From a virus, in IMG/VR virus record IMGVR_UViG_3300028610_001276, positions 1-38,946 of that record: a stretch of DNA of 38,946 nt. The stretch is one strand, 5' to 3'. Within the stretch, counting starts at the first letter, position 1. Each line of letters begins with the position of its first letter. Shown piece after piece: positions 3,757 to 33,924 of this stretch. Position numbers and translations under genes: made by a program. The notes beneath the pieces are model-generated. The model ran no database searches. It was given only the letters and a program-made list of their open reading frames with translations, and was not told the origin of the DNA.

Positions 3757-4656
3757 CTAAGCTACGTTCACCCTTCCGCTAACAGTCAACGGACTAACCG
3801 CAAACGCACCTGTTCCCGTCGACTCCACGAAGAGAGGAGACCCCATCGGTCCAACGATAGGATTACTCCAACCCACGACTTCGTCCGGAACATCGTTGAC
3901 TACGAGGAGTGGGTTGTAGGTCCAAATCAAGTTGTCCCAAACGTCGTAAACCTCAATGAGCCGTGTCGTACCCCACTGAGCGCCCATGTGGATACCTGTG
4001 ATGTAAACCTGCATCTGCGAAGTAGGCTGCTCCTCTTGCCTGCGTCGCTGAGAGAACCGATTCCGTGTCACGACTCCAAGAGTCGTGCTTCGGTAATCAG
4101 ACTCAAAGTGATCAGGCAACAGAAGCCCCGTACCACGAGCAGTCCCAATCAAGGGAATCCCGATACTTTGGATTTCCACATCAGCGTGTGCCGTCTGGTT
4201 CGCGGTGATGGCCATTCCAACGTGGTCCTCGCCAAGCAGCGCATTCGCAGCAGCTACGACATTCCCATCTCCAGCACCAATCACATAGCCTGGGCGAAAG
4301 TCGCCCAAGCCCGCCTTCCATCGGTTGAACGTAGTCCCTGCAGCCACCATCCCAGCCCCAAGGCCGTTGATGGTGTCAATCAGGTTCCGAATAGTCCCGA
4401 TGTTGGCATCTACATAATTGATACCGTTAGCGGCTGCAGTAGACCCTGTGTAGGTTCCGATCACTACCTCACCGGCAGCGTTCACCGTGAACAGCAGTCC
4501 GTTTACAGCCTGTGCGATGGTTGCAGCAGTGACGTCGACTCCGGCAGCGTTCTGCCTCGCAACATACTTCGCGTAGCACATTACGCCTTCGTCTTCGCCT
4601 ACCGAACGGGAGAAATACTTTCCGGGTCCTTCGATGATAGATGTTCTTGCAAGCAT
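3757..4656 (-). CDS. Probable minor capsid or capsid-associated protein
   Basis: 299 aa, ATG at 4656, SD AAGGGGGAAG. It directly follows the major capsid gene (11 bases apart). The sequence is neutral, rich in A, G, V, T and N, with repeated beta-type stretches such as VNGLLFTVNAAGEVVIGTY and a C-terminal region with PLLVVNDVPDEVVGW and GPMGSPLFVES. A basic run RNRFSQRRRQEE lies near residue 200. High expression and position fit a decoration, head-vertex or head-completion protein. I do not recognise a named family. Confidence 0.7.
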   Translation of the reverse strand: MLARTSIIEGPGKYFSRSVGEDEGVMCYAKYVARQNAAGVDVTAATIAQAVNGLLFTVNAAGEVVIGTYTGSTAAANGINYVDANIGTIRNLIDTINGLGAGMVAAGTTFNRWKAGLGDFRPGYVIGAGDGNVVAAANALLGEDHVGMAITANQTAHADVEIQSIGIPLIGTARGTGLLLPDHFESDYRSTTLGVVTRNRFSQRRRQEEQPTSQMQVYITGIHMGAQWGTTRLIEVYDVWDNLIWTYNPLLVVNDVPDEVVGWSNPIVGPMGSPLFVESTGTGAFAVSPLTVSGRVNVA

Positions 4657-4667
4657 CTTCTTCCCCC

Positions 4668-5843
4668 TTATCCGGTAATGCCGGTCATAACCATGTTGAC
4701 CCGCTCGTGAATGCCTTGCAAAGTCAGTTCTGAGAAGAACTCATCTTTGCGCCTATCTGCGTCGTTAGCATGGATGTTCTCAATTCTCTTGCAGTAAGCA
4801 GAACCCTGATATTTCGCAGGTCTTCCTGATTCCGGACCCGCCCGCAAATAACGGACAATCCAGTAATCCGGATCAAACAACAGTCCATACCCTCCGTAGA
4901 TTGTTCCCTTCATTTCTCGGTCGGTAACAATGTCCACGGTTCCTGAGTGGCTTTCGTAACGTCTCAAAACCATTCCATAAGACTCGTCTTCCGGAACAGT
5001 CTCAAGTCGATTACGAGCAAAGTTTCCAATTGCCCTCCCAACTTTGGGAGCACAAATAAGCAGCTTCCGTGCGGAACCGAACTGGAACCCGAGCTCCAGA
5101 GCAGCTTCGAACTCGCCTTCTCCCAAGATGCCATCAACAGCTACCCTGTTAATCTGCACTCGTTCAAAGACGCCGCCCATGGTCCTCATGTACTGACCAT
5201 TAACGGTCTGCCTATCGAAGCGACCAAACTTGAAGAAGTACTCCATCTGCTTCTTATGTTCAATCAACTTCTTCTCAGCTTGGTCTTCAAAGTCCCCTCC
5301 CAACTGACGAGTCGCCAACTGAGTTCCTGTCCCCTCGAGAGAGTTCCGAATAATCTGACAATAATGAGTAAACGGAATCTCCAAAGTGTTCAGTGCTTCG
5401 CGGGAGCTCGCGCCCTCTTCTAAAGCACAACCAAGAATCCAAATTGGGTCGTTGTCGTTAATCTGGGCGGGGGGTGTCTGTCCGATACCCCTCGTGACTG
5501 TAATGGGCGAAACACCCGCTGCAGTCGTTACCCGCATGTTCTCACCCGTCCTGGGAATATGCAATATATCCCCAACCAGGTAGAACGCGGGATTATCCAC
5601 GTTGAGTGCGAACACAGCAGGAGTATGCGCCCCAACTGCCAAGTCGATACTCGGTAAGAGCTCATCCTCAGCGTGCTGGGGTTCCGGCGTATCCGTCGCA
5701 ATCACCTTCTCCAGGTGATTCATCAACGTGGTAAGGGGCCGAGACGAGGTCTCCAGAACGGCGACCTTGGCCATCATCTCCTGAACGATTAAATCCTCCA
5801 GAAGATCAATGGTTCCTTTCGGCCCTGTTTGAACTGTAGGCAT
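4668..5843 (-). CDS. Major capsid protein, DUF5309-like
   Basis: 391 aa, ATG at 5843 with SD TGAGGAG. The N terminus (QEMMAKVAVLETSSRPLTTLM) is followed by the DUF5309-type pattern: FYLVGDILHIPRTGENMRV, then ITVTRGIGQTPP, a glutamine/glutamate-rich helix with GDFEDQAEKKLIEHKKQMEY (the capsid spine-helix position), TMGGVFERV, LLICAPKVGRAI and a C-terminal DPDYWIVRYL. In other phages this family forms the HK97-fold shell. The scaffold gene precedes it immediately. Length and context agree, and family assignment is from pattern memory. Confidence 0.85.
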   Translation of the reverse strand: MPTVQTGPKGTIDLLEDLIVQEMMAKVAVLETSSRPLTTLMNHLEKVIATDTPEPQHAEDELLPSIDLAVGAHTPAVFALNVDNPAFYLVGDILHIPRTGENMRVTTAAGVSPITVTRGIGQTPPAQINDNDPIWILGCALEEGASSREALNTLEIPFTHYCQIIRNSLEGTGTQLATRQLGGDFEDQAEKKLIEHKKQMEYFFKFGRFDRQTVNGQYMRTMGGVFERVQINRVAVDGILGEGEFEAALELGFQFGSARKLLICAPKVGRAIGNFARNRLETVPEDESYGMVLRRYESHSGTVDIVTDREMKGTIYGGYGLLFDPDYWIVRYLRAGPESGRPAKYQGSAYCKRIENIHANDADRRKDEFFSELTLQGIHERVNMVMTGITG

Positions 5844-5873
5844 CTAAATTCTCCTCAGTTAGTTTAGACACCC

Positions 5874-5888
5874 TCTCGCGGAGCGAGA
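5874..5888 (-). other. Hairpin between scaffold and capsid genes
   Basis: TCTCGC (5874-5879) and GCGAGA (5883-5888) form a six-pair stem with a three-base loop in the spacer just after the scaffold stop and before the capsid SD. No U-tract. It could set the ratio of scaffold to capsid mRNA by processing or partial attenuation. Confidence 0.45.
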
Positions 5889-5890
5889 AC

Positions 5891-6709
5891 TTACTTAGGG
5901 GACATCTTAGCTTTACGACCAAAGCTCTTCCCGATTGTGCCGCTTCCGATGTTCTTAGCAAACTCATGTTCCCGCTTCAACTCAGGGTGGTCCTTAAAGG
6001 GATCTTCATCCCCTGTTGCAGCAGTAGATGCGGGCTTCTTGGTCCCTCCGGCCAGAATATCCTTTATCCGTTCAGCTTCGCTTGGCGCCGCGGGCTGTTT
6101 ACCTTTGAGAATGTCCGGGTCCTCCGCAACGCAGATGTTCCACACACGTTTGTGAATAGCTTCCCAATGATCCTCACCATCAGGGATAAACATCCGCTTC
6201 GCGTGGTACAGACTCAGAACATTTTCCATCACGCTGCCCCACTGTTCGGTATTCTTCAGCTTCTCGTAGCCCTTCAGGTTCTCTTTCGCCCACGCATCGG
6301 TTTCGGAGTGCTTCTTGTCCGCACTACGCTGCGCAGACATCCTTCCCGCAATCTTCTCATTGTTCTCCGTGAGAATCTCCAACACTCTTTCTTCCGTTAG
6401 GGGCGTACCTTCCTTGGTCTCTGCGTCTACAACCTTCTTCTCCTCAAGTCCAGTCAAAGGCTTGTTGTCAATCAGCTTCTGAATAATCTTCTGACCAACT
6501 TCCCCTGAATCCCTCAACCTGAGAATAAGGTTGACATAAGGCGCTGACTCCAGTGTCTTTCGTTCCGCTTGGGCTACTCGTTGCCTTAGAGTTTCATTCT
6601 GACTTTCGAGGGACTTGCCCTCACCACCACCTCCAGCATTCCCTTCTTCGGAACCTGAGGCTGCCGCTTCCTTCATCAAGGCCGACAGGTTTGTTCCTTC
6701 TGAACTCAT
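5891..6709 (-). CDS. Capsid scaffolding protein (likely)
   Basis: 272 aa, ATG at 6709 overlapping the TGA of the preceding gene, with SD GGGAGGAG. The composition is scaffold-like: very acidic and basic, Gly/Ser-rich N terminus (SGSEEGNAGGGGEGK), a coiled coil at about 30-75 (LESQNETLRQRVAQAERKTL), long charged helices, a disordered Pro/Ala/Thr linker near 210-235 and a basic C terminus (GKSFGRKAKMSPK), the usual capsid-binding end. It sits directly before the major capsid gene, the standard position. Assignment rests on composition and order, not on homology. Confidence 0.75.
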   Translation of the reverse strand: MSSEGTNLSALMKEAAASGSEEGNAGGGGEGKSLESQNETLRQRVAQAERKTLESAPYVNLILRLRDSGEVGQKIIQKLIDNKPLTGLEEKKVVDAETKEGTPLTEERVLEILTENNEKIAGRMSAQRSADKKHSETDAWAKENLKGYEKLKNTEQWGSVMENVLSLYHAKRMFIPDGEDHWEAIHKRVWNICVAEDPDILKGKQPAAPSEAERIKDILAGGTKKPASTAATGDEDPFKDHPELKREHEFAKNIGSGTIGKSFGRKAKMSPK

Positions 6710-7110
6710 TTCTTAACTCCTCCCTTCTCTGATATCGCTCTCGCTTGATCCTTCTTGTCCATCTTGTTCACCATCTCCAGTTGCTTCTGGAAAATCTCGT
6801 ACTTCAGCTTCATGCTTTTCAGCGCTTCCAGTTTCGCCGTCCAATAATTGCTTACCGCCCTGAAGCACATCCAGAGCTGCATAATCTCTTGCTGGTTCGT
6901 AGGCGGCGTCATCTTCATTTCTGTCAACGCTGCGACGAACTTTCCATATCGGTCTACTTCTCCTATTTGCCATGACCATTCTCTCAGTAAATCAAGCTCC
7001 CCCTCGATTGTCTTCAGCCACGTCAGAAACGTCCTGTCCTCCTGCAGAATCAGATACGGTTTCAGCTTCGCCATCTCCGACGCCGGGTCCACCTTCCCTA
7101 CTTGTCCCAT
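6706..7110 (-). CDS. Helical late protein between portal and scaffold
   Basis: 134 aa, ATG at 7110 with SD GGGAGG. Mostly alpha-helical with many W, K, E, L and M residues (TWLKTIEGELDLLREWSWQI; LEALKSMKLKYEIFQKQLEM), ending in a charged tail. Four-base overlap with the scaffold gene. No family recognised. The position between portal and scaffold fits a small head-assembly or head-tail joining protein. Confidence 0.7.
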   Translation of the reverse strand: MGQVGKVDPASEMAKLKPYLILQEDRTFLTWLKTIEGELDLLREWSWQIGEVDRYGKFVAALTEMKMTPPTNQQEIMQLWMCFRAVSNYWTAKLEALKSMKLKYEIFQKQLEMVNKMDKKDQARAISEKGGVKK

Positions 7111-7198
7111 TTCTAAAAGCCTCCCTTAATGGATCAAACACAAACAGACCCCAAAGCAAAATCATTAACTCGTTGGCTACAACTTTAACACACTTCAC
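6992..7198 (-). CDS. Doubtful small membrane-type ORF after portal
   Basis: GTG at 7198 overlaps the portal TGA (GTGA) and AGGAGGGGG lies seven bases upstream, although that run also encodes the glycine-rich portal C terminus. The first 28 codons give a hydrophobic segment (VVANELMILLWGLFVF) in the 84-base gap before the next gene. The rest overlaps the 7110 gene in another frame and looks like shadow sequence. It could be a real short membrane peptide or only a coupling leader. Confidence 0.3.
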   Translation of the reverse strand: MKCVKVVANELMILLWGLFVFDPLREAFRNGTSREGGPGVGDGEAETVSDSAGGQDVSDVAEDNRGGA

Positions 7199-9345
7199 TG
7201 AGCACCCCCTCCTATCTGCGCTGCCATATCTCCCTCTGATGGCGTCCTCATATTCCCAGGATTCGGCTGCTGTCCGGGACCCCCCTGCATCCCAGGCTGC
7301 TCCTGAGGAGGTGTTCCTCCCCCAGCGGCTGCAGGCTGAACATACATTCTGTGTTTCTTAATGTGGTCCTGCAACGCTTCCAATCCTCTGTCGTCTCTAA
7401 CCTCACTCGCCCCAGCCGTGTGAGCTTGCAGATGCTCGGGATGATTATCGTTCTGAAGAACCGGAACAAACTCGCCTCTGACCAAGACCATATTCTCTTG
7501 GTCTGGACTCCACGTTCTGTCCGGAGGAGGGATAGTGAAACGCTCTGGGAACCTTGAATCGAAATGCTTCCAAAGCTCGAGCCAGATTTCGGAAACGTTG
7601 GCCACTTGAAGGATAGCTGGGTTCTGCCCAATAAGCGCCAAACCCTGAAGCATCTGCTGTCTAATGACCTCCTTGCCAACATGCGTTGTGCTTCCTCTGG
7701 GCATGAAGTCATAGTCACCTACAATCTCCTGAATCTCCAATTTCTTGAAATTGACTCCATCTTTTCCAAGAATCCTGAAGACCTGTCCCTCTTTAAAATA
7801 CTGTTGCCTTCGCCAGAAGAACTTCTTGGCAACCTGCTGCAGAAAAGTCTCTTCTCCTATGAGGTTGCCCAACTGGACCCTCTGCTCCTCAGCAGCCCCC
7901 ATCATCTTAGCTTCAGTCGCCGTATCTATTCCTCTACTTCCGGCGCCCCCCATGCGCAGGGAAGACCTAGCCACAGCTCTCTGAATATCGGCAAGCAAAC
8001 GATCTTCATAAATCTGCGACTCCGGTGGCAAAGGCCTCCCCTGCATCAAGGGAACGATAGAAGGTTTTCCGTTGGCGAAAAATGGAATCTGAAGCACGTC
8101 GCCGGGGCTTACCTCTGTCGCCTGCTCCGGCAAATCAATAGTCTCATCGACACCCCAAACATTCATTGCGTTCAGTCTCGCCTGACGCATGTTCAAATTT
8201 CGATAGCTGTTTACCTCTTCTTGAGACTTTCGAATGGGATGTATGTAACCCATCCCCCAGAAATATCCTTCAAGGGGAATACAAGGAGTGGCGACGAAGG
8301 GTTTTCTCTTATCGTCGTATGGATTTTCGCCATCGTGAACGACCGCAGTTCCGTTGCAGATGACGACTTTTCGGTCATCTTCGTAGTAAGTAATCCTTTC
8401 GATAGCCGCATCTCTGTCTCTATCAATATCTCTGACTTGTACGTATCGCTGCTTCTTAAACCCTCCAAGATTAGTCCAACCCATTGCTTCAGAGGTGTCG
8501 TCGCTTGCGTCGAGCTCATAAACTCCCTCCGCGAATCCCTTAGCTATCTTCGGAATCAAATCAAGATTCTTGTATAATTTCTTACCCGTCAGTTCCTTCC
8601 ATTGTTCATCTTCCTCTCCCAGCGTCTGCCTGTCCGTCCAGTCTCTCTTCCAGCAGTAACGCATCCTGTCGAGTTCATAATAAAGAGGGTCGACGCCGAA
8701 GTTGAAAGGACTCACCCAATCAAGAGAGGGACCGTCAAAATCAATGACGGTCTCCATCCGCTTGAAGTATTCCCACTTCGACATCAGCTTTCTGAACTTG
8801 TCGAATCCTGTAGGAACTTTCTCCTTATACCGTTTTCTAACCTTATGAGACTCATACCTGTAAGTGACTTCACCGATTCCCGTTCCGTATTTGAACATTG
8901 ACTTCGCATAGGGAATTGCTTGCAGAAGCGTTCGCGCTCGTTCGAAGTCATAGTCAAGCATCTGAGTAACAGCCTCAGCCCTGTCTTGGTCATCCTGAGT
9001 CCTCCCCATTACGTCGACAAAAGGCCTCTGCCCGAACTGCGCAAAAATCCAAGACGGAATAAGCGACTCAATCACAGAGAACGTGATCGGTACGAATAAA
9101 TCCGGGTCATCCTGCCTCCCGGTTATGATTGCCCTGTCGTTGTCTCGTGCCTCAACAGCCGGAGACAGACTCAAATAATACCTGTTCAACTGTCTGAAGA
9201 GATTATTCTGCCCCCCAAACGCACTTATGGAATCGCCTATTCTGTCCCGCACAAAATCAAGAGTCTTATTATCTTGGGAGCCCATCCGGAACGCATGAGT
9301 CATCAGACCCGGTCCGGTGTCAACGTGGTCTCTCGCCAGTCTCAT
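7195..9345 (-). CDS. Portal protein
   Basis: 716 aa from ATG at 9345, which overlaps the TGA of the phospholipase-like gene and has AGGACGGG upstream; the open frame continues further 5' but that part is the overlapping gene. Portal-like features include an early segment on assembling the wing (FVPITFSVIESLIPSWIFAQ), Tyr-rich beta strands, DSVDFDGPSLD-like clip residues (TVIDFDGPSLDWVSPFNFGVDP), SQEEVNSYRNLNMRQARLNAM in the stem/crown region, and a Pro/Gly/Gln-rich C terminus (PPQEQPGMQGGPGQQPNP). The size matches large podovirus portals. It forms the dodecameric DNA channel at one capsid vertex and docks the terminase. Start codons of this gene and its upstream neighbour are near duplicates. 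Confidence 0.85.
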   Translation of the reverse strand: MRLARDHVDTGPGLMTHAFRMGSQDNKTLDFVRDRIGDSISAFGGQNNLFRQLNRYYLSLSPAVEARDNDRAIITGRQDDPDLFVPITFSVIESLIPSWIFAQFGQRPFVDVMGRTQDDQDRAEAVTQMLDYDFERARTLLQAIPYAKSMFKYGTGIGEVTYRYESHKVRKRYKEKVPTGFDKFRKLMSKWEYFKRMETVIDFDGPSLDWVSPFNFGVDPLYYELDRMRYCWKRDWTDRQTLGEEDEQWKELTGKKLYKNLDLIPKIAKGFAEGVYELDASDDTSEAMGWTNLGGFKKQRYVQVRDIDRDRDAAIERITYYEDDRKVVICNGTAVVHDGENPYDDKRKPFVATPCIPLEGYFWGMGYIHPIRKSQEEVNSYRNLNMRQARLNAMNVWGVDETIDLPEQATEVSPGDVLQIPFFANGKPSIVPLMQGRPLPPESQIYEDRLLADIQRAVARSSLRMGGAGSRGIDTATEAKMMGAAEEQRVQLGNLIGEETFLQQVAKKFFWRRQQYFKEGQVFRILGKDGVNFKKLEIQEIVGDYDFMPRGSTTHVGKEVIRQQMLQGLALIGQNPAILQVANVSEIWLELWKHFDSRFPERFTIPPPDRTWSPDQENMVLVRGEFVPVLQNDNHPEHLQAHTAGASEVRDDRGLEALQDHIKKHRMYVQPAAAGGGTPPQEQPGMQGGPGQQPNPGNMRTPSEGDMAAQIGGGAQ

Positions 9346-17226: not shown

Positions 17227-17262
17227 CCGACTCTGAGCAGGATGCGCCCTGCCCAGAGTCGG
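17227..17262. terminator. Long hairpin between convergent genes
   Basis: CCGACTCTG (17227-17235) pairs with CAGAGTCGG (17254-17262); inside, GCAGG pairs with CCTGC after one A-C mismatch. On the minus strand the stem is followed by TATTTTATA, so it could end the 17274-17585 transcript; on the plus strand there is no T run. Confidence 0.6.
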
Positions 17263-17762: not shown

Positions 17763-17864
17763 GGGCGCGTGGCGAAATTGGTAAACGCGTCAGACTTGGA
17801 ATCTGTTGGGCCGAGGCACTCCAACCTCACACGGCCCTTGCGGGTTCGAATCCCGCCGCGCCCA
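17763..17864 (+). tRNA. Class II tRNA, anticodon TGG, leucine-like body
   Basis: Acceptor GGGCGCG (17763-17769) pairs perfectly with CGCGCCC (17857-17863), discriminator A at 17864. D stem GCG/CGC. Anticodon stem CAGA/TCTG with loop CTTGGAA, so anticodon TGG at 17797-17799. T arm GCGGG-TTCGAAT-CCCGC. A variable region of 33 bases (17807-17839) with stem GGGCC/GGCCC is far longer than the usual class II arm. CCA is not encoded (CAC follows). TGG reads proline codons, but the class II body, A73 and A37 (normal proline tRNAs have G37) resemble leucine tRNAs with one changed anticodon base. Charging identity is uncertain: Leu, Ser or none. Confidence 0.8.
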
Positions 17865-22697: not shown

Positions 22698-22919
22698 ATG
22701 GTACACCCACGCGGACGAATAGTATGCCCAAGATGCAACGATCCGGCGACGGTACCAATTGGGACGCACACAGCTTACTGCCTCAAATGCATGTCGGACA
22801 GGGTGCCGAGTGCCCCCACGTGTAAGAAAGTGATACCAATGGATAAGGGAAGCTTTTGTTTCGGTGTACTTATTGGGTGGATAGGAATGCTCTTGGCTTT
22901 CTGGATCTGGAATAGCTAG
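22698..22919 (+). CDS. Zinc-ribbon membrane protein
   Basis: 73 aa, ATG at 22698, SD GGAGGAAATTT. CPRCNDPATVPIGTHTAYCL followed by KCMSD is a four-Cys zinc ribbon (CxxC...CxxC). After a polar linker, residues 53-71 are one transmembrane helix (CFGVLIGWIGMLLAFWIW). A membrane-tethered zinc ribbon facing the cytoplasm is likely. Confidence 0.7.
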   Translation: MVHPRGRIVCPRCNDPATVPIGTHTAYCLKCMSDRVPSAPTCKKVIPMDKGSFCFGVLIGWIGMLLAFWIWNS

Positions 22920-23545
22920 TGAAAAGTAGATTCTATCAAGAGCGAGTAAACACAGCCTGCCGCCTTAAGCGACCTTCCGTTTGCAAAGACTGCATGGGAA
23001 ATCCTGATTCGGACTCTCACAATCCTATGGTTTCCGGAGGCCATATCCCTCCTTCAGGTCCTATAGATGCTCCTCTTATGCTGATAGGTATAACTGGAGG
23101 AGTTGAGGAAGAGGAAAGAGGCGAACCTTTCGTTGGTAAGTCAGGAAGGAAAATCAAAGCGGTTATCAGATGGGCAGTTGAGGAGTTCGGTTCTAAGTCG
23201 TTGCCTATCAGGAAATATAATATTTACAACTGCCGCGCTACTACAACGGGTTACGGAGGACGAATCGTCAACCGAAAATCAGGAGGCATGACTGTTAGAG
23301 AGATGAAATCTTGCGCTTCGCGCTGGTTGTTGCCTGAACTAAGAAAGACTAAAGCGAAAGTTGTTCTCGTTCTCGGAACTGAAGCCTTCTCGTTTCTGAT
23401 AGGAAAGAGGTTCGACAACTTCAACAAGGCCATGGGGTATAGATTGTATGTTCCGCAAAGTGGAATTAGTCCGGAGGGGTTAGGCACGGAGATCTGGTCC
23501 TTTGATACCGAGGTGGATTGGTCGGACGCAATGTACGATAAATAG
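22919..23545 (+). CDS. Uracil-DNA glycosylase-like protein (family 4/5 type)
   Basis: 208 aa from GTG at 22919 (TAGTG overlap). Cys22, Cys25, Cys105 and Cys132 fit the Fe-S cluster of the thermophile/bacterial family 4 type. GVEEEERGEPFVGKSG (61-76) matches the uracil-pocket motif GxPFxGxxG, NIYNCRATT (101-109) and KVVLVLGTEAFSFLIG (147-162) the central strands. The usual C-terminal HPS/HPA catalytic loop is not visible. It would excise uracil, or in phages guard or alter DNA; loss of the His motif may mean a non-catalytic or altered role. Cluster assignment is by pattern. Confidence 0.75.
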   Translation: MKSRFYQERVNTACRLKRPSVCKDCMGNPDSDSHNPMVSGGHIPPSGPIDAPLMLIGITGGVEEEERGEPFVGKSGRKIKAVIRWAVEEFGSKSLPIRKYNIYNCRATTTGYGGRIVNRKSGGMTVREMKSCASRWLLPELRKTKAKVVLVLGTEAFSFLIGKRFDNFNKAMGYRLYVPQSGISPEGLGTEIWSFDTEVDWSDAMYDK

Positions 23546-31760: not shown

Positions 31761-31807
31761 AGAAACTTCCGATGACGAAAACCAACAAGAGAGGAAAGGA
31801 GGTGTAA
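31757..31807 (+). CDS. 16-codon ORF ending in the polymerase SD
   Basis: ATG at 31757 overlaps the previous TGA; the product MKKLPMTKTNKRGKEV is basic. Its last codons contain the SD AAAGGAGGTG for the ATG at 31811, so it may be a leader that couples translation to the polymerase gene. Confidence 0.35.
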   Translation: MKKLPMTKTNKRGKEV

Positions 31808-31810
31808 AGG

Positions 31811-32465
31811 ATGTCGCGTGAAAAACTTTTGTTCATGAACACGTGGCATCCGTGAGCCGGCTTATGTAGGATATGATCCTGCGCGAAGCAGGAGGAGCTT
31901 CGTTTACCATGTGAGGAAGGCAGTCAGGATAGCGCTCGGGCAGAAAGAAGAAAGGCTGCCGGATATTCTCTATAATCCTTCAGTGAGAGAAGCTGTTGAG
32001 GTATTCGGAGAGTGGAAAGATGGTTTCGCCTGCGACATCGAGACCCCTTCTCTCCAGGATCATAGAATGCTCTCTGTTGCTGTCTCTGGCGAAATAGACA
32101 GAGCAATGGTCTGGGATCTGAGGGACTCAAAGAGCCGAAGGCTGATGGGTCCACTGAGGAAATATCTACAAGCGGTCTCCCCTAGAAGGATTGTCTTCCA
32201 GAACGGCGAGTTCGACATTCCTATTCTTCAGAAGCACGGCTACAAGGTCAACCTCGACGTGTGCTGGGATACTATGGTAGAGAATCAAATCCTGTGGCCC
32301 GACGAGCCTGTCAATCTTTCGTTCCTCGGTTCGATGCACACCGACATGGAGGCATGGAAGCATCTGAGGGGTTCGAGACTTTTATTCTATAACGCGCTCG
32401 ACGCAAATGTAGACTGGAAAGTTTACGTCGGAAGCGACGAACATTATGAGGAGTATGATGAATAA
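31811..32465 (+). CDS. DNA polymerase A 3'-5' exonuclease part, +1 frameshift at CCG-TGA
   Basis: ATG at 31811 has a near-perfect SD (AAAGGAGGTGTAAAGG) but the frame stops after 14 codons (MSREKLLFMNTWHP, then TGA at 31853-31855). One base forward, the sequence continues as EPAYVGYDPARSRRSF and runs open to 32465, joining smoothly (NTWHP-EPAYVGYDP). That frame alone starts only at a GTG (31911) with poorly spaced SD. The protein holds all exonuclease motifs: CDIETP (Exo I), FQNGEFDIPIL (Exo II) and YNALD (Exo III), so proofreading is intact. With the shift it is about 217 aa. A sequence error or internal start is possible. Confidence 0.7.
31878..31892 (+). other. Hairpin downstream of the frameshift site
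   Basis: CCTGC (31878-31882) pairs with GCAGG (31888-31892) around loop GCGAA, extended by T-A at 31877/31893; an overlapping AGGAT-ATG-ATCCT hairpin covers 31868-31880. They lie 13-22 bases after the CCG-TGA, farther than typical stimulatory structures. Confidence 0.4.
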
Positions 32466-33924
32466 AGAAGATAGCTGCCCTGATTGTGGTGCAGAAGTGA
32501 ACTCTATGAGGGAGTACGTCAACAGAAGGATGCCGATGGTCTGGAACCTCATCATGCCTCTCAATCAGAGGGGTGTGATGTTGGATGTGACGCAGTTGAG
32601 AATCTTTCAGGCGGATCGGGCAAAGAAGATGAAGACTTGGAGGAAGAGGGCTGAAAAACATTTTAAAGAACTTAGCTTGGGAGAATATGATAAGAAGCTG
32701 AAGACTCTGTTGCCTATCGGCCTAAAGGGAGGGTTCTCCAATAAGAAGTTGCGGAGACTCGTCTATGAGGAAATGGATTTGCCGGAGCAGCTCAATCCTG
32801 AAGGAAACGTAACCTGTGACAAGGATGCTCTCAAGAGGTTGGCAAAGATAGACTCAACAGGAACGATTGACCTCTTGCGAGAAACGACTGCCTTTCAGGA
32901 ATCAAGGAATGCCTTGATGGTTAAGCCCCATCCTGATGGCAGAGTCAGAACACGCTTTGTGTTCGGAGGAGATGAGAAATGGACAGAGGACGAAGTAGGA
33001 CGAGAGAGCCCTGGTTCAGGGAGACTCGCTTCGAGAAACCCAAACCTGCAAAACATAAAAGATTGGGTACGTGCTATCTATGTCCCGAGGAGCAGGGGGA
33101 GGTGGCTTATCAAAGCGGACTATTCACAGATAGAAATGAGGCTGATTGCCATCCTGTCTGGCGACCCGGAACTTTTGAAAGCGATAGAGACTGATGCTCA
33201 CCTCTACATCATGTATCTGGTGGACAAAGCCACAGATTTATATGGCCTCCACAAAAGGGGTTTTCCCCAACTTCTCAAGGACTACAGAAGGGGTGACTCT
33301 GAAGTTGTATTCGCGCGGGATGAGACCAAGAGAACAGATTATGGATGGGGATATCGAATGGGCGTCAAGACCCTCGAGAACGTCAGAGGAGTCCCCGTTG
33401 ATCGAGGCCTCCGTGCGCTTGCTGCGCTCAACAGAGAGTTCCATTATGTCGTTGAGTGGTGGAACTCACTTGAGGCGGAAGTCAGAAGAACCGCGGCAGG
33501 CACTGGAATGGGATACCTCCAAAACCAGTACGGACGCGTCCGTCATTTTTTCACGGACGACAAGAAGTGGGTTCCCAAGGCCTGTAACTTCTTCCCCCAA
33601 GGTCTGGCCGCCGACATACTCTATGACGCTATGGAGACGCTTGAGAAGAATCTTCATCGTTTCGATTCAGAGCTGGTCCTTACGTGTCATGATGAGGTTG
33701 TTATCGACTGCCCTGCAAATCCAGAAGAAGTCATTCCTTACATCAAAGAAGTCATGGAGAGACCGGTTCCTGAGTTGGATGGCTTAGTCGTTCCAGTTGA
33801 CATCATGTTGGGAAGGAACTGGGCCAAGTTTCATAGACACGGCAAGGGATGTAAGAAACATTGTGCGAAGCACGAGAACGTTAAGGGACAGCGTAACTGG
33901 AAGGAGGCTCTCAATGCTGCATAA
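32458..33924 (+). CDS. Family A DNA polymerase, polymerase part
   Basis: 488 aa from ATG at 32458 (SD GAGGAG at 32448-32453). An unusual CPDCGAEVN zinc-knuckle half opens the protein, then MPMVWNLIMPLNQRGVMLDV as in PolA. Motif A is KADYSQIE, followed by RLIAILSGD. Motif B is RDETKRTDYGWGYRMG, where Lys is followed four residues on by Tyr at the position of E. coli Phe762 (as in T7), so the polymerase may accept dideoxynucleotides more readily. Motif C is CHDEV. It overlaps the exonuclease stop by eight bases in the +1 frame. Replicates the phage genome; exo and polymerase are separate chains or joined by frameshift. Confidence 0.9.
   Translation: MNKEDSCPDCGAEVNSMREYVNRRMPMVWNLIMPLNQRGVMLDVTQLRIFQADRAKKMKTWRKRAEKHFKELSLGEYDKKLKTLLPIGLKGGFSNKKLRRLVYEEMDLPEQLNPEGNVTCDKDALKRLAKIDSTGTIDLLRETTAFQESRNALMVKPHPDGRVRTRFVFGGDEKWTEDEVGRESPGSGRLASRNPNLQNIKDWVRAIYVPRSRGRWLIKADYSQIEMRLIAILSGDPELLKAIETDAHLYIMYLVDKATDLYGLHKRGFPQLLKDYRRGDSEVVFARDETKRTDYGWGYRMGVKTLENVRGVPVDRGLRALAALNREFHYVVEWWNSLEAEVRRTAAGTGMGYLQNQYGRVRHFFTDDKKWVPKACNFFPQGLAADILYDAMETLEKNLHRFDSELVLTCHDEVVIDCPANPEEVIPYIKEVMERPVPELDGLVVPVDIMLGRNWAKFHRHGKGCKKHCAKHENVKGQRNWKEALNAA

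Follow-up and report, generated by a model that had tools for sequence, protein, structure and literature searches.

A uracil-DNA glycosylase (UDG)-like domain precedes the exonuclease in many phage polymerases. In UDG-exo-pol proteins, this domain, a 3′-5′ exonuclease and a family A polymerase share one reading frame; the last elements of the UDG-like domain are a strand bearing T-x-HP-A and a helix, after which comes the D-x-ET motif of the exonuclease. Family A polymerases can also be split, as in the OM43 phages MEP401 and MEP402, where the cut lies inside the polymerase domain and a small ORF sits between the parts (PMC10580990).

Other systems join reading frames during translation. In prfB, the +1 shift takes place at CTTT-GA, with AGGGGG three nucleotides ahead of it and a C following the stop (PMC12421855); in the antizyme gene of the yeast Kluyveromyces waltii it takes place at CCG_UGA_C (PMC5009743). 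On 70S ribosomes, but only when RF2 is absent, a hairpin adjacent to the E site promotes +1 shifting (PMC6321510). The known uses of translational bypassing are few, namely T4 gene 60, yeast mitochondria and candidates in Streptomyces phages, and gene 60 depends on a signal in the nascent peptide, 25-30 residues ahead of the P site (PMC5009743).

The window analyzed here is the whole of a 38,946-base IMG/VR virus record, in which tailed-phage genes for terminase, portal and major head protein are present. Its family A polymerase is spread over three ORFs, and the frame is broken at the head of the middle one. The plausibility assigned below to each explanation of this break is our judgement rather than a computed quantity.

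A family A polymerase in three ORFs

The domains that the fusions hold in one frame are distributed here over ORFs at 22919-23545, 31811-32465 and 32446-33924, with the following contents.

22919-23545, plus strand: UDG-like N-lobe ORF, 208 aa; its GTG start overlaps the TAG of the preceding gene
31839-32465, plus strand: exonuclease frame, with the UDG-like C-terminal helix and then the 3′-5′ exonuclease (Pfam PF01612, E 7e-7; alignment A3; structural model)
32446-33924, plus strand: polymerase-domain ORF (family A; Pfam PF00476, E 1.3e-37), its 5′ part overlapping the end of the exonuclease ORF

The hallmarks of a family A polymerase with a 3′-5′ exonuclease are all in place. The exonuclease ORF carries the motifs D-x-E (DIET), N-x-x-x-D (within QN..FD, here QNGEFD) and Y-x-x-x-D (YNALD), and polymerase motifs A (DYSQIE) and C (HDE) supply the invariant columns D225-E230 and H415-D416 of alignments A1 and A2. 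The C-terminal helix of the UDG-like domain is predicted at about residues 23-41 of the joined protein. The exonuclease and polymerase ORFs overlap at 32446-32465, a segment that contains an internal Shine-Dalgarno sequence (SD; GAGGAG, 32448-32453) and a start codon (ATG32458); because the polymerase ORF thus has its own ribosome-binding site, this split needs no frameshift.

Among about 285 surveyed loci, the UDG-like domain, exonuclease and polymerase lie in one ORF in 86, a UDG-exo ORF accompanies a separate polymerase ORF in 4, and in 7 the UDG-like domain has an ORF to itself; the window alone has all three apart. Two surveyed loci show a possible insertion into the polymerase gene: L121 (2474-7483), with about 2 kb between its UDG-exo and polymerase ORFs, and L130 (minus strand, 4339-7238), whose polymerase ORF has an extra HTH-like head. 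The nearest polymerases, those of L141 and L017, are about 31% identical or less among the matches listed, and single-sequence and profile searches of phage records, IMG/VR and GTDB genomes, from which the records closest to the window may have been absent, yielded no close relative among the matches listed.

A UDG-like fold apparently divided between two genes

The first ORF matches the Pfam UDG profile PF03167 (E 7.8e-12) over profile positions 1-101 of 141, a match that ends before T-x-HP; in alignment A4 the ORF has neither the last strand with its T-x-HP motif nor the C-terminal helix. Its AlphaFold model is good for about residues 41-160, with pLDDT below 50 over residues 175-208, and a Foldseek search with this model has family-4/UdgX glycosylases as its top fold matches (family-4 UDG 1ui0, E 6.6e-9) and also recovers the phiLo polymerase (9qhs, E 9.6e-4).

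The catalytic motif of an active family 4 UDG is degenerate in this ORF, and the HP-x-x-x-x-R strand is absent from the chain, a partial motif being found 8.3 kb away at 31811-31880. Because the GEAPG of relatives is replaced by GITGG, the N-lobe product is probably inactive as a uracil-DNA glycosylase. A single UDG-like fold appears to be divided between two phage genes 8.3 kb apart (22919-23545 and 31811-31910), with the cut at the loop where the relatives L017, L019 and L023 have a long insertion.

The break at the head of the exonuclease frame

The break lies among the following elements.

31795-31804, plus strand: SD AAAGGAGGTG, serving ATG31811
31811-31855, plus strand: 14-codon ORF MSREKLLFMNTWHP followed by TGA (31853-31855), encoding the UDG-like T-x-HP strand
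31836-31838, plus strand: TGA that closes the exonuclease frame on its 5′ side
31850-31859, plus strand: CCG-TGAG-CCG, the same Pro codon on either side of the stop and the best direct junction against the family profile
31911-31913, plus strand: GTG, the sole ATG/GTG/TTG start of the exonuclease frame ahead of the catalytic motif

The first-pass annotation had described an ATG with the best SD whose frame soon meets a TGA, a stop closing the exonuclease frame upstream, and a badly spaced GTG as the only start of that frame, all of which are indeed found. When 36 starts of the window were scored, ATG31811 proved to have the strongest SD (-12.6 kcal/mol, spacing 6), and it is very likely where translation begins. 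Codon usage of the 14 codons is coding-like (+2.2 bits, versus -12.4 and -5.3 in the other frames); the exonuclease frame, which is +1 relative to that of ATG31811, is only mildly coding-like over 31839-31910 (0.06 bits, versus -5.9 and -15.0). The SD of GTG31911 (-10.3 kcal/mol) has a spacing of 14, whereas well-placed strong SDs in the window stand at 3-9. A start at this GTG would truncate the predicted helix at residue 34; the exonuclease domain begins 3′ of the GTG and is complete from it.

Three hairpins surround these elements.

31809-31851, plus strand: hairpin of 12 bp with two G-U pairs and a 19-nt loop, containing ATG31811 and ending within the last sense codon, CCG
31866-31882, plus strand: hairpin GTAGGAT-ATG-ATCCTGC, 3′ of the break
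31883-31903, plus strand: hairpin GCGAAGC-AGGAGGA-GCTTCGT, whose loop holds the SD AGGAGG (31890-31895)

The last two correspond to hairpins reported earlier at 31868-31892; they are present, with unremarkable stability (z -0.9 to -1.5). The first, absent from that annotation, reaches -23.7 kcal/mol over 71 nt (z -3.2); it ranks third on the plus strand, inside the range of shuffles, and such stems are expected somewhere in 39 kb. By stem score, the strongest hairpin of the window is at 17227-17262 on the minus strand (16 bp, loop of 4).

Rfam finds no intron or known RNA element at the break, only a tRNA elsewhere in the window. This tRNA gene (17763-17864, plus strand; 61.5 bits) is missed by ARAGORN at default settings and called tRNA-Trp(cca) when an intron is allowed. 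It looks chimeric, having a long variable arm, a Leu-like D arm, A73 and an anticodon loop, CUUGGAA, with the anticodon UGG (Pro codons) and A37, a pattern not found in other IMG/VR contigs. The codon at the break (CCG, 31850) is a Pro codon as well; no link between the two is shown.

Sequence likeness across the break

The last residues of the short ORF are NTWHP, and the exonuclease frame goes on with a helix, SFVYHVRKAVRIA, that matches those in UDG-exo-pol ORFs of other phages (alignment A3). T-x-HP occurs in 0.2% of the open 14-codon windows of the genome and immediately before a stop at only 1 of the 2380 stops in the window. Its HP is separated from D-x-ET by 61 residues; in the relatives measured this distance is 57-66 residues, a range that leaves out L017, one of 11 relatives, which the pattern mis-measured. 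For the fused N terminus that had been deduced earlier, T-x-HP does match relatives, but HP-EP-AY fits worse than HP-AY.

A profile built from 34 relatives served to score every direct join of the two frames, together with variants in which the TGA is dropped. The best direct junction, at 12.1 bits, removes 7 nt (TGAGCCG; WHP-AYVGY): when the first CCG is joined to the codon after the second, 7 nt are skipped and the exonuclease frame is entered, giving the deduced peptide NTWHPAYVGYDPAR. The product of a +1 slip, NTWHPEPAYVGYDPAR, scores 3.0 bits and has two extra residues in an invariant motif (WHP-EPAY; HP-EP-AY versus HP-A). Only two variants, both dropping the TGA and switching frame, score above 12.1 (12.2 and 12.5 bits). 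A 12.1-bit fit was reached by 7 of 1500 dinucleotide-shuffled regions given equal freedom of junction choice, a test that covers the choice of junction, picked after the data were seen, and not the choice of motif. The region 5′ of GTG31911 adds only 1.4-1.9 bits to a match with the phrog_17 profile; as sole proof of homology this gain was set aside, the junction test and the spacing doing better.

These comparisons support, at a level of order p = 0.005 and not beyond doubt, the view that the short ORF and the exonuclease frame both derive from a single ancestral coding sequence. To that extent the earlier interpretation is supported; the junction of its +1 slip is the weaker one.

A possible tolerated insertion

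Our first choice, though a tentative one, is that the seven nucleotides are a real insertion and that the exonuclease is started at GTG31911. The ancestor would have been a phage with a fused UDG-like/exonuclease/polymerase gene, which would now be represented by the three ORFs for the N-lobe, for the C-lobe and exonuclease, and for the polymerase. At the head of the middle ORF, seven extra bases (TGAG and the second CCG) after the CCG of T-x-HP would have broken the frame. The break would be tolerated: ribosomes that load at the very strong SD of ATG31811 would translate a leader of 14 residues as far as TGA31853, and re-initiation or coupling would then let the exonuclease begin at GTG31911, with the AGGAGG of the hairpin loop as its SD.

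The alignment over the break, the 61-residue spacing and the shuffle result are consistent with such a history, as is the finding that the best direct junction is the one with 7 nt removed between two CCGs. The many single-ORF loci, against a window that alone has three, point the same way, and with a motif as degenerate as GITGG, loss of the C-lobe may be tolerated. In addition, the exonuclease domain begins after GTG31911, which is preceded by a strong SD, and the break is at most 42 nt from the start, the least harmful place. Less easily accommodated are the 14-nt distance of that SD, an outlier in this phage, and the cut that a GTG31911 start makes in the predicted helix. With no C-lobe made, the intact N-lobe ORF would be left without its last strand, retention of the strongest SD of the set at ATG31811 is odd for a dead leader, and the phrog_17 gain before GTG31911 is small. 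A real insertion followed by initiation at GTG31911 accounts for the same data with no need of recoding, and we infer that the living phage has the break and uses this GTG.

Possible ribosomal recoding

Somewhat unlikely, in our judgement, is that the ribosome itself joins the frames, by a hop over the stop or by a +1 slip. The hop is the better-fitting form, although taken singly it is decidedly unlikely: peptidyl-tRNA-Pro would leave CCG (31850-52) with UGA in the A site, re-pair at CCG (31857-59) and continue with GCT, to give NTWHP-AYVGYDPARSRR. Its product is the best of the direct junctions, and matched codons with a stop right after the take-off codon also occur in T4 gene 60 and synthetic stop-hops (PMC5009743). 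What the hop treats as matched codons over a stop is, for the insertion, a DNA insertion with a 3-nt duplication, which would leave matched CCG codons equally well. Recoding would account for the strongest SD at ATG31811 and would supply the C-lobe that the intact N-lobe ORF needs. It is also conceivable that the 12-bp hairpin adjoining the site pushes the mRNA or acts as an E-site duplex, as in the +1 shifting stimulated on 70S ribosomes when RF2 is absent (PMC6321510). Where gene 60-type bypassing has a 5′ stem-loop behind the take-off site, the window has this hairpin, but it extends into the take-off codon, and genome-wide it is within shuffle expectation and not exceptional. Moreover, a nascent chain of 14 residues leaves no room for a gene 60-type peptide signal, the site has no internal SD, its stop is followed by G (TGAG), and no relative with the same site was found among the matches listed, so that no conservation speaks for it.

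The slip, giving NTWHP-EPAY, is the less likely form and has a slim chance. The first-pass annotation had likened it to prfB, a likeness that finds no support at CCG-TGA: no SD is found about 3 nt before the shift codon (the sequence is CACGTGGCATCCGTGA), CCG TGA G takes the place of a slippery CTTT or TTTT with C after TGA, and CGU, the triplet in the +1 frame, is a poor match for tRNA-Pro. As the best junction, a prfB-like +1 slip is ruled out by motif, signals and profile score. CCG is not an impossible +1 shift codon, since K. waltii antizyme uses CCG_UGA_C, and this counts in favor of recoding. A fuller proposal, which we consider improbable, is a short programmed stop-hop at CCG-UGAG-CCG by which the exonuclease subunit would carry the missing UDG-like strand and helix, the domain being completed in trans within a three-protein polymerase complex.

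Error, chance and readthrough as rival explanations

An assembly or sequencing error in a gene that is truly in one frame is unlikely. The coverage of the IMG/VR record is unknown, and frame breaks in L067, L102 and L186 suggest a base rate of roughly 1-2% in the surveyed records. No close relative against which the inserted bases and the frame relation could be checked was found among the matches listed, and a search for near-identical contigs in which 0-12 nt separate the two halves of the motif gave none. However, correcting a single wrong base (T31853) would leave HP-EP-A, unlike relatives; seven bases are needed to restore the motif, an unlikely read error outside a repeat, and the break lies next to the start codon rather than at random in 2 kb. 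The breaks in L067, L102 and L186, all IMG/VR polymerase genes, fall in conserved domains and are probably simple indels, that of L186 near a CCCC run.

We also find it hard to credit that the 14-codon ORF is an unrelated leader or RNA control element, with a hairpin over its start codon, and resembles T-x-HP by chance. The hairpin at 31809-31851 does span the whole short ORF with its start codon, its 3′ arm encoding TWHP, and the profile scores are low in absolute terms. Set against this are the rarity of T-x-HP in open 14-codon windows and directly before stops, its proper distance from D-x-ET, and the junction test. An alternative code or TGA readthrough was rejected, the frame after the TGA closing at 31871-31873 and never reaching the exonuclease, even if HP-(TGA)-AGLCR also resembles the motif.

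Comparison with known systems

Like prfB (RF2), the window has a short first ORF that ends in TGA and a continuation in the +1 frame, but it is without the AGGGGG, the CTTT, the TGAC and the logic of RF2 regulation. T4 gene 60 bypasses a 50-nt gap, as opposed to the 7-nt hop envisaged here, and the chain in the window, which is known from sequence alone, is far too short for the KKYK signal. If real, the 7-nt hop over a stop in this phage polymerase would add a small natural case of bypassing that is easily tested.

The closest likeness is to the UDG-exo-pol fusions (PHROG 17; Thermus phage phiLo, PDB 9qhs; L141, L017), which have the same domains, motifs and spacing and whose polymerases are up to 31% identical to that of the window, L141 and L017 being nearest among the matches listed. 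The window differs from them in its three ORFs, in a UDG-like fold apparently encoded in two pieces with 8.3 kb between them, and in the frame break within the second piece. As in the split family A polymerases of L026 and of MEP401/402, the polymerase occupies more than one ORF. L026 is likewise cut between exonuclease and polymerase, its ORFs overlapping at a new ATG, but leaves the UDG-like domain undivided and joined to the exonuclease; this fission (9062-9086) is of the same kind as that at 32446-32465, in a slightly different place. Even without recoding, the window appears to present one UDG-like fold shared out between separate phage genes, and a replicative polymerase encoded in three ORFs.
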